From: Brevinematales bacterium
GTDB lineage: Bacteria > Spirochaetota > Brevinematia > Brevinematales > Thermospiraceae
Direction of reading: 5' to 3'
Length of the DNA: 52,975 bases
Assembly: GCA_013177995.1 (NCBI GenBank)
Contig: JABLXN010000017.1
Coordinates: 1-52,975 of the forward strand
The translations under genes and the position numbers were made by a program. Position 1 is the first letter of the stretch. Every line of letters starts with the position of its first letter. Below are positions 7,380-52,975 of this stretch, one piece after another. The notes below the pieces were generated by a model. The model was given only the letters and a program-made list of their open reading frames with translations, searched no databases and was not told the origin of the DNA.

Positions 7380-7444
7380 TGAGTTATAGAACTTTTTTTG
7401 AGAAAAAAGAAGAGAGCAGAAATCTTCATAACTAAACTCATTTC

Positions 7445-7646
7445 GAGACCCTTGCACGGGTGTTTTCTTTCCCTATTTGGGTCAGGGGCTACGCCCCTGA
7501 AACCCCGCTTTTTCTGTGTACAAGGGCATATTTGTCTTTTTTTATCTAAAAAATAGGCTTGTTTATTAATGGAAAGGAATATTTTTATACTATTTTCTGT
7601 TTTTTATTACTTTCTTGAGACCTTTGCACATTCGTGCAAAGGTCTC
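7445..7646 (-). repeat. MITE-like element, copy 1 (complete, reverse orientation)
   Basis: This 202-bp element is the reverse complement of the copy at 44357-44557. On the plus strand it begins GAGACCCTTGCAC and ends GTGCAAAGGTCTC, giving 13-bp terminal inverted repeats, and it is flanked on both sides by ATTTC (7440-7444 and 7647-7651), a 5-bp target duplication. One end (7617-7646) is itself a perfect hairpin with a 13-bp stem and 4-base loop. An inner hairpin, TCAGGGGC-TAC-GCCCCTGA, lies at 7482-7500. It contains no reading frame and fills most of the 357-bp gap between the ABC exporter and the lipoprotein gene. Confidence 0.9.
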
Positions 7647-7709
7647 ATTTCTCTTTTGTTATAAAATTCTTGAGCCAAAAATTGCTATTTTTTCTTTTTT
7701 TCTTGATAC

Positions 7710-10404: not shown

Positions 10405-11517
10405 ATGAATGACAGAAAACACAGGGTTGTTCAGGAATTTCTCACACAGGTCAAAATTGAAAGTCATTCTTTCAAAGAAAAGAAAATGTTTGACTATCTC
10501 GAAAAGAGGCTTACCGACATAGGGCTTGAGGTAGAACGAATCCCTTATACCACAGAGGAGGGAAATAGTTCTGAGAATCTTGTGGCTCGTCTGAGGGCAA
10601 ATACCTCAGGAAAGAAAACGCTTTTCTTTGATGCTCATGTGGATACTGTGGAACCTGGGGTAGGGATACAGCCTGTTATCGATGGAGAAGTGATTCGTTC
10701 GTCGGGGCAGACTATTTTAGGGGGAGATGACAAAGCCGCTTCCGCAGCTATGGTGGTAGCTGCGGAGGAACTCAAACATAGAGAACATGGAGACATCCTT
10801 TTTGTGTTTACCTCTGCTGAAGAGGTGGGACTCGTTGGAGTAAGGTATCTTGACTTTTCTCGTATTCAGGCTGATTATGGTTTTGTGCTTGATTCTCATG
10901 GTCCTGTTGGAGGAATCATTGTAGCGGCTCCTACGCAATATCAGTATGAGATCTTTGTGACGGGAAAGGCAAGTCATGCAGGGATTGCCCCCGAGGCGGG
11001 GAAAAACGCTATCGTGGCAGCTGGAGAGATCCTCACCCGTCTTCCGCAGGGGCGTATCAACCGTTACACGGTGGCTAATGTGGGTGTGATTGATGGTGGG
11101 AAGGCTACCAATATTGTAGCCGATCTCTGTCATATTCAGGGTGAATTTCGTTCTCACCGGGAAAAGGATTGTGAGAAACTCCAGAGAAAAATCGAAAGGC
11201 TGATTCACAGGAAGTCTTTTGAAAAAAAGATAGAGGATGTGAATGTCTGCTTCAAGAAGGTATATAGCGGTTTTCGCTATGAGAATGATAGCCCCGTGAT
11301 TCAACTGGTTTCAAAGGCCATGGGGGAACTTGGGATTACTCCTCGTCTTGAATGGACAGGTGGAGGGAGTAATACCAATATCTACAATCAGAATGGAATA
11401 CCGGCTGTCAATCTCAGTGTTGGCATGGAAGAGGTGCATTCTCTCCAGGAGTATATCCGTATAGAAGATCTTGATAAACTCACCGCTCTCATCATCAAAA
11501 TCAGTGAACTCTCCTGA
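10405..11517 (+). CDS. M20-family zinc peptidase, PepT-like
   Basis: This 370-residue cytoplasmic protein belongs to the M20 metallopeptidases. Metal and catalytic motifs are in place: FDAHVDTVEP (His ligand and catalytic Asp), GGDDKAA (bridging Asp), TSAEEVGLVG (catalytic Glu and ligand Glu), VLDSHG (Asp ligand) and EEVHSLQEY near the C-terminus (His ligand). The central lid domain has SHAGIAPEAGKNAI. It most resembles PepT-like aminopeptidases, but ArgE- or DapE-type substrates cannot be excluded. The start follows AAGGGTG. Confidence 0.85.
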   Translation: MNDRKHRVVQEFLTQVKIESHSFKEKKMFDYLEKRLTDIGLEVERIPYTTEEGNSSENLVARLRANTSGKKTLFFDAHVDTVEPGVGIQPVIDGEVIRSSGQTILGGDDKAASAAMVVAAEELKHREHGDILFVFTSAEEVGLVGVRYLDFSRIQADYGFVLDSHGPVGGIIVAAPTQYQYEIFVTGKASHAGIAPEAGKNAIVAAGEILTRLPQGRINRYTVANVGVIDGGKATNIVADLCHIQGEFRSHREKDCEKLQRKIERLIHRKSFEKKIEDVNVCFKKVYSGFRYENDSPVIQLVSKAMGELGITPRLEWTGGGSNTNIYNQNGIPAVNLSVGMEEVHSLQEYIRIEDLDKLTALIIKISELS

Positions 11518-15311: not shown

Positions 15312-16816
15312 GATTACGTTTCCAACAGGAGACCTGAAAGAGAGAGAAAAGGATAAAGAAGTTACCCCTGGCTCAAAAGATTTTTGTCAACTGTAGTATA
15401 CAGGGAACATTTTAGATAAACAAGTTTTTCTGGGGAAAGTACCCTTTTTAGGCCATAAAACAGGGCAATAAGTACGTACCATCCCTATGTTTTATATCAC
15501 ATCCTGCCAGTAGACACCATCGATAGCCTCATCACGATTATAGTAGTAATGCAAACGCACAGCAAGAACATTGGTTGCCCCTTCTCTTTTCCATACCCCC
15601 ACATCCATTCTCTGGTTTATGGTTCGCATCAGCCGTTCTGCCCTTGAGGTTGTTCCTGGCAAACCATCTTCACTGTCACAGGCGAACATGTCTTTTTGAG
15701 CACGAAGAAGATAATAAAAACAATGTTTGCGCCCTTTTTCGTGAAATAAGTCAAGAAGATTCTGAATATGCTGTCTGCGCTCGCTTTGATAACCAAGTCT
15801 TGTTTGCCAGTCATTTTTGTAACCCAAGAAACAGGCTTTCCCTGTTTCAGCGACAATATTTGTCCACTCAGAAGAACGATATCTCACTCTATCAAGACGA
15901 AGAAAATACTTCAATTGATAACTCACATGCCACAAACATCGTTGAAAAACGATACCGGGATGTTTGCCCTGGTTAATCCCTGTATCTCCATCGACAACAA
16001 GAAAAAACCGAGAAAAAGAGTGTTTTTCTTGAATGGGCTTAAGAAGTTTGTCCCAACCTGCATGGTAATTATCCACAAGAAGGCCTGCTATTCTTGTATT
16101 TTTTCCTGTCAATGGGGAGGCTTGTTGCCTCTCCTGCAAAAGAATTTTAGCTTCTTCTCCTTTTTTCTTGCCCTGAACAGGAATACCCGTCCCATCGGCT
16201 TCTCCACAGGGTTTTTCTTTTTCCGATAGGCTGAAATGTATCTTTTTCCCAATCTCCTGGAGGTTTTTCCAGAGGGTGCTGAGACCTATTTTATAACCTG
16301 TGAAGGAAAGAATCCGGGCAGCTACCCGATAGGTAGTAAGAGCCCCGGCTAAAGCCACTCTGTAGATATCTTTCAGGATTTGCCTTTTTCGCTTTTCTAC
16401 ACCAAGAAGAGATCTTGTGAGAAAAAGTTTTCTTCCACACTTTTTGCATTGAATCTGGAGTTGAGGAAGAGTGATTTTTCCAAAGGGCATCAGAACAAAA
16501 AAGGTGTTTTTTCCATGCTTTGTTTTCCATATGAAGTGATGTTTTTCTCCGCATGTACAGGTGATACGACCTTCTTTTATTTCTTTTTCTGCCACTTCTA
16601 CAGAAATCTGATGAACAAATGACTCAAACACTCCTTTGATGGCCTGGAGAAAAACCACCACTAACGTCTCAAGTTTTGTGTCAGGGTAGTGATAGTCAAA
16701 GTGAAGGTGAATTCTTTACGCATGGGTTCCTCCTTGTGTCCTATTATCGGCCAGGGAGGAACTTTTTTTGCTTTTCCTCATCTTCCCACTGCAGGTCTCC
16801 TGAAAAAAACGTTACC
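15312..16816 (-). mobile_element. Insertion sequence, complete, 1505 bp
   Basis: The ends are imperfect 25-bp inverted repeats: GATTACGTTT....CAGGAGACCTG on the left and, read inward, GGTAACGTTT....CAGGAGACCTG on the right (19 of 25 identical). Direct repeats of AAATTTTT flank it. It holds one transposase gene on the minus strand. A second copy begins at the window's left edge. The 1.5-kb size, 8-bp duplication and GGT terminus resemble the ISH6 group as I remember it; ISLre2 is another possibility. The element sits between a histidine-kinase gene and the glgB promoter without damaging either. Confidence 0.85.
15492..16723 (-). pseudogene. Frameshifted DDE-type IS transposase
   Basis: The 389-codon frame 15492-16661 encodes most of a transposase: N-terminal Cys motifs CTCGEKHH and CKKC suggest a zinc finger, followed by EADGTGIPVQGKKKG (first catalytic Asp), FFLVVDGDTGI (second), RCLWHVSYQLKYFL, and SRAERLMRTINQRMDVGVWKREGATN (likely Glu). 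The natural start is the ATG at 16723-16721 behind AAGGAGG. The other IS copy reads through this region as ...TIDYPDTKLET, but here one C is missing between 16690 and 16691. The frame therefore shifts and hits TAG after 20 codons. Either this copy is inactive or it relies on frameshifting or an internal start. Confidence 0.8.
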
Positions 16817-44322: not shown

Positions 44323-44356
44323 CCTGAAAAAGGGAAGGGGAAGAGTTTTTCAAAAG

Positions 44357-44557
44357 GAGACCTTTGCACATTCGTGCAAAGGTCTCAAGAAAGTAATAGA
44401 AAATAGAAAGTAGTATAAAAATATTTCTTTACATAATAAACAAGCCTATTTTTTAGATAAAAAAAGACAAATAAGCCTTTGTAAACAGAAAAAGCGGGGT
44501 TTCAGGGGCGTAGCCCCTGACCTAAACAGGGGAAGAAAATACCCGTGCAAGGGTCTC
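44357..44557 (+). repeat. MITE-like element, copy 2 (complete)
   Basis: This 201-bp copy begins GAGACCTTTGCAC and ends GTGCAAGGGTCTC. It is flanked by AAAAG on both sides (44352-44356 and 44558-44562), a 5-bp target duplication. The left end is a perfect hairpin (44357-44386: 13-bp stem, loop ATTC), and the inner hairpin TCAGGGGC-GTA-GCCCCTGA is at 44502-44520. Relative to the body, the loop is inverted compared with copies 1 and 3. It occupies most of the 286-bp gap before the CarD-like gene and has no coding capacity. Confidence 0.92.
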
Positions 44558-44562
44558 AAAAG

Positions 44563-52826: not shown

Positions 52827-52975
52827 GAGACCTTTGCACGAATGTGCAAAGGTCTCAAAAAGTAATAAAAAATAAAAAATAGTATAAAAATATTTCTTTT
52901 CGTAATCAATAATTCTATTTTTTTGAACAGAAAAGACAAGTGAGCCCCTGTAAACAGAAAAAGCGGGGAAGAGGG
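52827..52975 (+). repeat. MITE-like element, copy 3 (cut by window edge)
   Basis: The hairpin end (52827-52856) has the same 13-bp stem with loop GAAT, and the body up to AAACAGAAAAAGCGGGG matches copy 2. After GCGGGG it reads AAGAGGG, where copy 2 has the second hairpin. This looks like a deletion between two GGGG stretches (copy 2 has CAGGGGAAGA after that hairpin). The far end and its target duplication lie outside the window. Confidence 0.85.

Follow-up and report, generated by a model that had tools for sequence, protein, structure and literature searches.

A high-copy MITE with a mutable palindromic right end in a Brevinematales genome, and its probable IS5-family partner

What kind of DNA is a repeat of some 200 bp that recurs in both orientations within a single contig, is bounded by inverted ends and encodes no protein, and which enzyme could have moved it? 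The window analysed here is the whole contig of 52975 bases. A sequence-only reading of it had described a MITE-like element of 202 bp between exact ATTTC repeats, with 13 bp inverted ends differing at one base, a reversed copy with its own AAAAG duplication at 44352-44562, and a third copy from 52827. Re-examination found each of these structures in place, and delimited them together with further parts as follows.

7440-7444, unstranded: left target duplication ATTTC of copy 1 (from the sequence, with statistics over 113 copies)
7445-7646, plus strand: MITE copy 1, 202 bp, with 93.5% identity to the consensus of the family
7445-7457, plus strand: left terminal inverted repeat of copy 1, GAGACCCTTGCAC
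7483-7499, plus strand: internal G+C-rich hairpin of copy 1, CAGGGGCTACGCCCCTG (from the sequence and folding)
7617-7646, plus strand: right-end 30 bp palindrome of copy 1, GAGACCTTTGCAC-ATTC-GTGCAAAGGTCTC (inner and outer terminal repeat)
7647-7651, unstranded: right target duplication ATTTC of copy 1 (from the sequence)
44352-44356, unstranded: target duplication AAAAG of copy 2 (from the sequence; both congeners have an element-free AAAAG-like single site)
44357-44557, minus strand: MITE copy 2, 201 bp, reversed, with the palindrome loop inverted (GAAT in element orientation)
44357-44386, minus strand: right-end palindrome of copy 2 (from the sequence)
44545-44557, minus strand: left terminal repeat of copy 2, GAGACCCTTGCAC (from the sequence)
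44558-44562, unstranded: other target duplication AAAAG of copy 2 (from the sequence)
52827-52975, minus strand: MITE copy 3, cut by the contig end

Copy 3 is incomplete because the window, being the whole contig, ends within the repeat. The terminal repeats GAGACCCTTGCAC (left) and GAGACCTTTGCAC (right) differ at a single base, and no recognizable gene or transposase was found inside the MITE (consensus ~201 bp), in keeping with its earlier description as gene-less.

The family extends far beyond the window. Its end GAGACCNTTGCAC was counted 316 times across the 2.38 Mb genome, against a single occurrence of the reversed control pattern. With up to two mismatches allowed, right-end palindromes number 159 and left ends 144; the family comprises about 160 copies. 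From stretches of the genome, 166 matches were extracted, of which 114 are full length (~201 bp) and occupy 28.2 kb, or 1.2% of the genome, so that the family total is at least that and the counts given here are lower bounds. Many contigs end within a MITE or within an ISH6-like insertion sequence described below (the window at 52827-52975, and C6, C11, C26, C27, C34, C36 and C56), and such repeats therefore fragment the assembly, which again makes the copy numbers lower bounds. The median identity of MITE copies is 85.5% between pairs, 91.5% to the consensus and 95% to the nearest neighbour, and amplification was therefore spread over time. Two copies, at C21:6092-6292 and C18:23552-23751, have both flanks in common and thus indicate duplication of a larger segment there.

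With the element boundary placed at GAGACC...GGTCTC, exact 5 bp duplications were found at 61 of the 113 full copies with both flanks, where 1.8 were expected and the maximum in 500 shuffles was 7. The duplicated sequences are of 41 different kinds, a further 14 copies match at four of five positions, and 5 bp is the duplication length with by far the greatest excess. Transposition, as proposed from the window copies, is thus borne out by other copies of the family, which do carry such duplications. The target preference is weakly palindromic (C-AWWWT-G), with C immediately outside the left duplication in 38/113 copies (background 16%) and G immediately outside the right one in 39/113 (background 17%; p about 1e-5 in each case). 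Insertion would favour A+T-rich intergenic targets of this form, the 5 bp duplication being made in the process. One copy (C18:11061) is nested within another at 10908-11315 and is flanked by its own duplication, ATTTT. At the locus of copy 2 both congeners carry the same two genes, separated by 248 bp here and by 52 and 32 bp there, and the orthologous site is empty in both, with one AAAAG-like target. The interval holding copy 1 measures 424 bp here and 121 bp in one congener, with a spacer too diverged for the target to be placed. The repeat is a true MITE, in which all the tested defining features of MITEs were found.

The same repeat might be read as a conserved structural RNA, or as REP-type palindromes spread by some other mechanism, rather than as mobile DNA; its predicted folding is strong (z = -5.7 and -6.6), its right end is palindromic and its roughly 160 copies are mostly intergenic. 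However, Rfam returned no match at gathering score across the window, so that the known structural RNA which the sequence-only reading had envisaged as a rival did not appear, and the exact 5 bp duplications, the nested insertion and the empty site show transposition. The family is moreover absent from both genomes of the same genus, unlike a conserved RNA, and we regard this interpretation as very improbable. REP and REPIN sequences are also short, intergenic, palindromic and of high copy number, but Y1-type transposases move them and leave no target duplication, whereas the MITE has DDE-type ends with 5 bp duplications. Among 100 relatives, the search for MITE homologues gave nothing but isolated chance-like 13-mers and, for the body, chance alignments of A+T-rich sequence. 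Searches of plasmids, of viral contigs and of the literature brought to light no MITE of this sequence; in the literature the end sequence led to the study of Porphyromonas cited below and to an unrelated paper.

Joined empty sites lie in frames open over at least 600 bases in 3.7% of cases, against 64% of random window positions, and MITE copies therefore avoid genes. By crude open reading frame calls, full copies flanked on both sides seem to occur more often upstream of both neighbouring genes (34/75) than between convergent genes (9/75). It could be argued that copies persist through their use to the host, for instance by carrying transcription terminators or promoters to new sites. In copy 1 the hairpin at the right end is followed by T-rich DNA and resembles a terminator, and five or more T stand among the nine bases after the hairpin in 36 of the 113 copies. 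The likeness depends on the target, however, since it is the variable target, not the element, that supplies the T-run. By the same crude calls, both neighbouring genes are often downstream of a copy, and copies diverge freely, as the median pairwise identity indicates. Retention for host use thus seems improbable to us.

As to the enzyme, GAGACCNTTGCAC ends outside the MITE copies were sought, and four sites remained. Three proved to be MITE ends with other insertions, and the fourth marked the left end of a 1366 bp insertion sequence (G000:C27:24319-25684), the sole intact copy found in the genome. The genome-wide search for a transposase-bearing element with matching ends, which had been suggested from the window, thus led to one on another contig. 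Its left end is GAGACCCTTGCACGGGTA and its right end GAGACCCTTGCACGACTC (in longer form GAGACCCTTGCACGGGTAGCG and, read from the other side, GAGACCCTTGCACGACTCTTT); the left ends of the MITE and of this element have 17 bp in common (GAGACCCTTGCACGGGT), the right ends 13 of 14 bp. Its open reading frame of 346 aa is open and scores 283.7 bits against the NCBIfam IS5 model NF033581 (cut-off 140), with a complete Pfam DDE_Tnp_1 domain (PF01609, E=3e-34, positions 5-200 of 200). On sequence grounds the probable partner on C27 is accordingly classed as an IS5-family element with a DDE transposase. Its flanks, AGAAA and AAAAA, match at 4/5 positions in this single copy, and a remnant of a second copy lies on C12 beside a MITE (91% identity over 96 bp). 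IS5-family elements are usually credited with duplications of other lengths, which counts against this element as mover of the MITE. Transposases of Candidatus Ruthturnera, distant relatives which are 37% identical in protein sequence to that on C27, belong to elements with GAGACCTTTGCA ends, and 8 of the 17 copies are flanked by exact 5 bp duplications; the kind of end and the length of the duplication therefore travel with the transposase clade. Among insertion sequence relatives from the spirochaete phylum (L196-L204), a simple pattern search detected no GAGACC ends, apart from one right-end GGTCTC.

The C27 element is very probably the MITE's missing transposase source. Beyond about 17 bp on the left and about 13-15 bp on the right the two have no sequence in common, and the MITE is therefore not a simple deletion derivative of this insertion sequence; moreover, about 160 MITEs stand beside one intact insertion sequence, and the family may owe its amplification to a lost relative. 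The transposase, which the sequence-only reading had called unknown, is largely accounted for by this IS5-family element with the same ends, whose role in moving the MITE we infer on good grounds. The C27 enzyme, or a lost close relative, would recognize, cut and rejoin the MITE ends, an IS5-family DDE transposase supplied in trans thus acting on their GAGACC(Y)TTGCA sequences. We hold it to be highly probable that the MITE (~201 bp) is a non-autonomous DNA transposon and depends for its movement on a DDE transposase acting in trans, one that belongs to the IS5-family clade with GAGACC(Y)TTGCA ends and 5 bp duplications.

A second candidate mover resides in the window itself, where a complete ISH6-like insertion sequence of 1505 bp (15312-16816) is flanked by the 8 bp duplication AAATTTTT; its transposase reading frame (15492-16661, minus strand) scores 133.7 bits against a 240-bit cut-off. 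Many more copies occur in the genome, several of them inside MITEs and many at contig ends. Its ends likewise include GAGACCT, with CAGGAGACCTG found within them, and the abundance of copies, some inside MITEs, might also suggest that it moves the MITE. Its inverted repeats, however, start GATTACGTTT / GGTAACGTTT, and its match to the MITE end is limited to seven bases, the remainder being absent from the MITE. The ISH6-like element differs from the MITE both in its ends and in its duplication length (8 bp as opposed to 5 bp) and was rejected; we thus consider it a most implausible mover, and the IS5-family element on C27 is preferred.

The family is new, but of a known kind, and it stands out by its copy number and its mutable palindromic end. 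The Correia element of Neisseria has ends that differ from those of the present MITE, and its target is TA. According to a review it is likewise a MITE of high copy number (over 120), and its 204 bp make it about as long as the present one (PMC10969869). Two IS5-family elements, ISNme1 (ends GAGACCTTTGCAAAA) and ISPg1 (GAGACCATTGCA), have ends that match those of the MITEs ATR and BrickBuilt and have been proposed as their parents (PMC4596501). The MITE ATR of Neisseria meningitidis thus resembles the present case in its ends, which match those of an IS5-family element (PMC4596501); it has about 19 copies in Neisseria as compared with about 160 here, and a palindromic right end was not found described for it. 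BrickBuilt and MITEPgRS of Porphyromonas gingivalis, with ISPg1, ISPg4 and ISPg9 of the IS5 family, have GAGACCTTTGCA or nearly identical ends, and there too a parent in the same genome was named through common ends (PMC4596501); they contain internal tandem repeats, with few both-ended copies and unclear duplication lengths, whereas 5 bp is seen here over 113 copies. The IS5-family element of Candidatus Ruthturnera (CP125320.1) resembles the C27 element in its end type and its 37% identical transposase, shows 5 bp duplications as the MITE does, and is autonomous. A well-documented high-copy MITE family, of a sequence not found described, is thereby added together with a probable parent element, and the GAGACC-type IS5 clade is seen with 5 bp duplications in two unrelated hosts.

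A feature absent from the first description is that the right end of the MITE forms a perfect 30 bp palindrome, in which two copies of the terminal repeat enclose a four-base loop. Among 112 copies, seven sites are altered identically in both arms, where 0.54 would be expected if changes were independent and none of 2000 shuffles reached seven; the control pair of left end and outer right end showed no identical paired changes. The loop is ATTC or a point variant in 99 of 114 copies and the inverse (GAAT, GAAA or GAAC) in 15. Descent of the inverted loops as a single inherited subfamily was ruled out, since the 15 copies require 15 changes on a tree built from the element bodies, no fewer than with shuffled labels; the supported branches alone force four. 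The three closest relatives of each inverted copy all have an uninverted loop (identity up to 98.8%), which together with the tree indicates that the loop inversions are individual in-place events. The closest relative of the sole GAAA copy has the exact inverse, TTTC, and the copy at C6:40569 combines two arm changes with an altered, inverted-type loop.

Loop inversions and concerted arm changes have been proposed as signatures of template switching at hairpins (PMC8794818), and their joint occurrence here is most likely the footprint of in-place template switching, although palindromes may also invert during library preparation or assembly. After insertion, the right-end palindrome would go on mutating in place, both by inversion of its loop and by concerted changes in its arms, with template switching during replication as the most likely cause. 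Such events are usually inferred from single rare cases, whereas a single hairpin present in many copies within the same genome allows in-place loop inversion and arm correction to be counted directly. On balance we lean towards regarding the ~115 copies as a natural replicate experiment for template switching, with footprints enough for relative rates.

Nine solo 30 bp palindromes were also found, five of them flanked by exact 5 bp duplications. These duplications might suggest that the palindrome is a minimal mobile unit, its two facing 13 bp repeats being cut and inserted without the 170 bp body. However, the left end and the inner right repeat are 13 bp direct repeats, and loss of the body between them gives an identical product and duplication; three solos carry at position 7 the C of the left-end type, which never occurs in a palindrome arm of a full-length copy; at least these three therefore arose by body deletion between end repeats. 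Ends only 4 bp apart may in addition be too close for a transposase synapse, and we judge independent mobility of the palindrome to be rather unlikely. Body deletion, the preferred explanation, would thus turn some MITE copies into solo palindromes.

Further repeats were encountered at or near MITE loci. The MITE at C3:36016 harbours a 1.1 kb insert (L050, about 334-1485) with ends TGTCGTTCCACAT, which shows an apparent 19 bp duplication of the MITE end (AACACCCGTGCAAGGGTCT) and whose ends recur in a MITE on C22 (L119); it was first considered as an autonomous version of the MITE but is another mobile element, marked by its long duplication. Finally, short repeats such as GCTGAAACAGGGTAATAGCC and CTGAAACATGGTGATAGC recur near MITE loci (L041, L050) and look like another repeat family.
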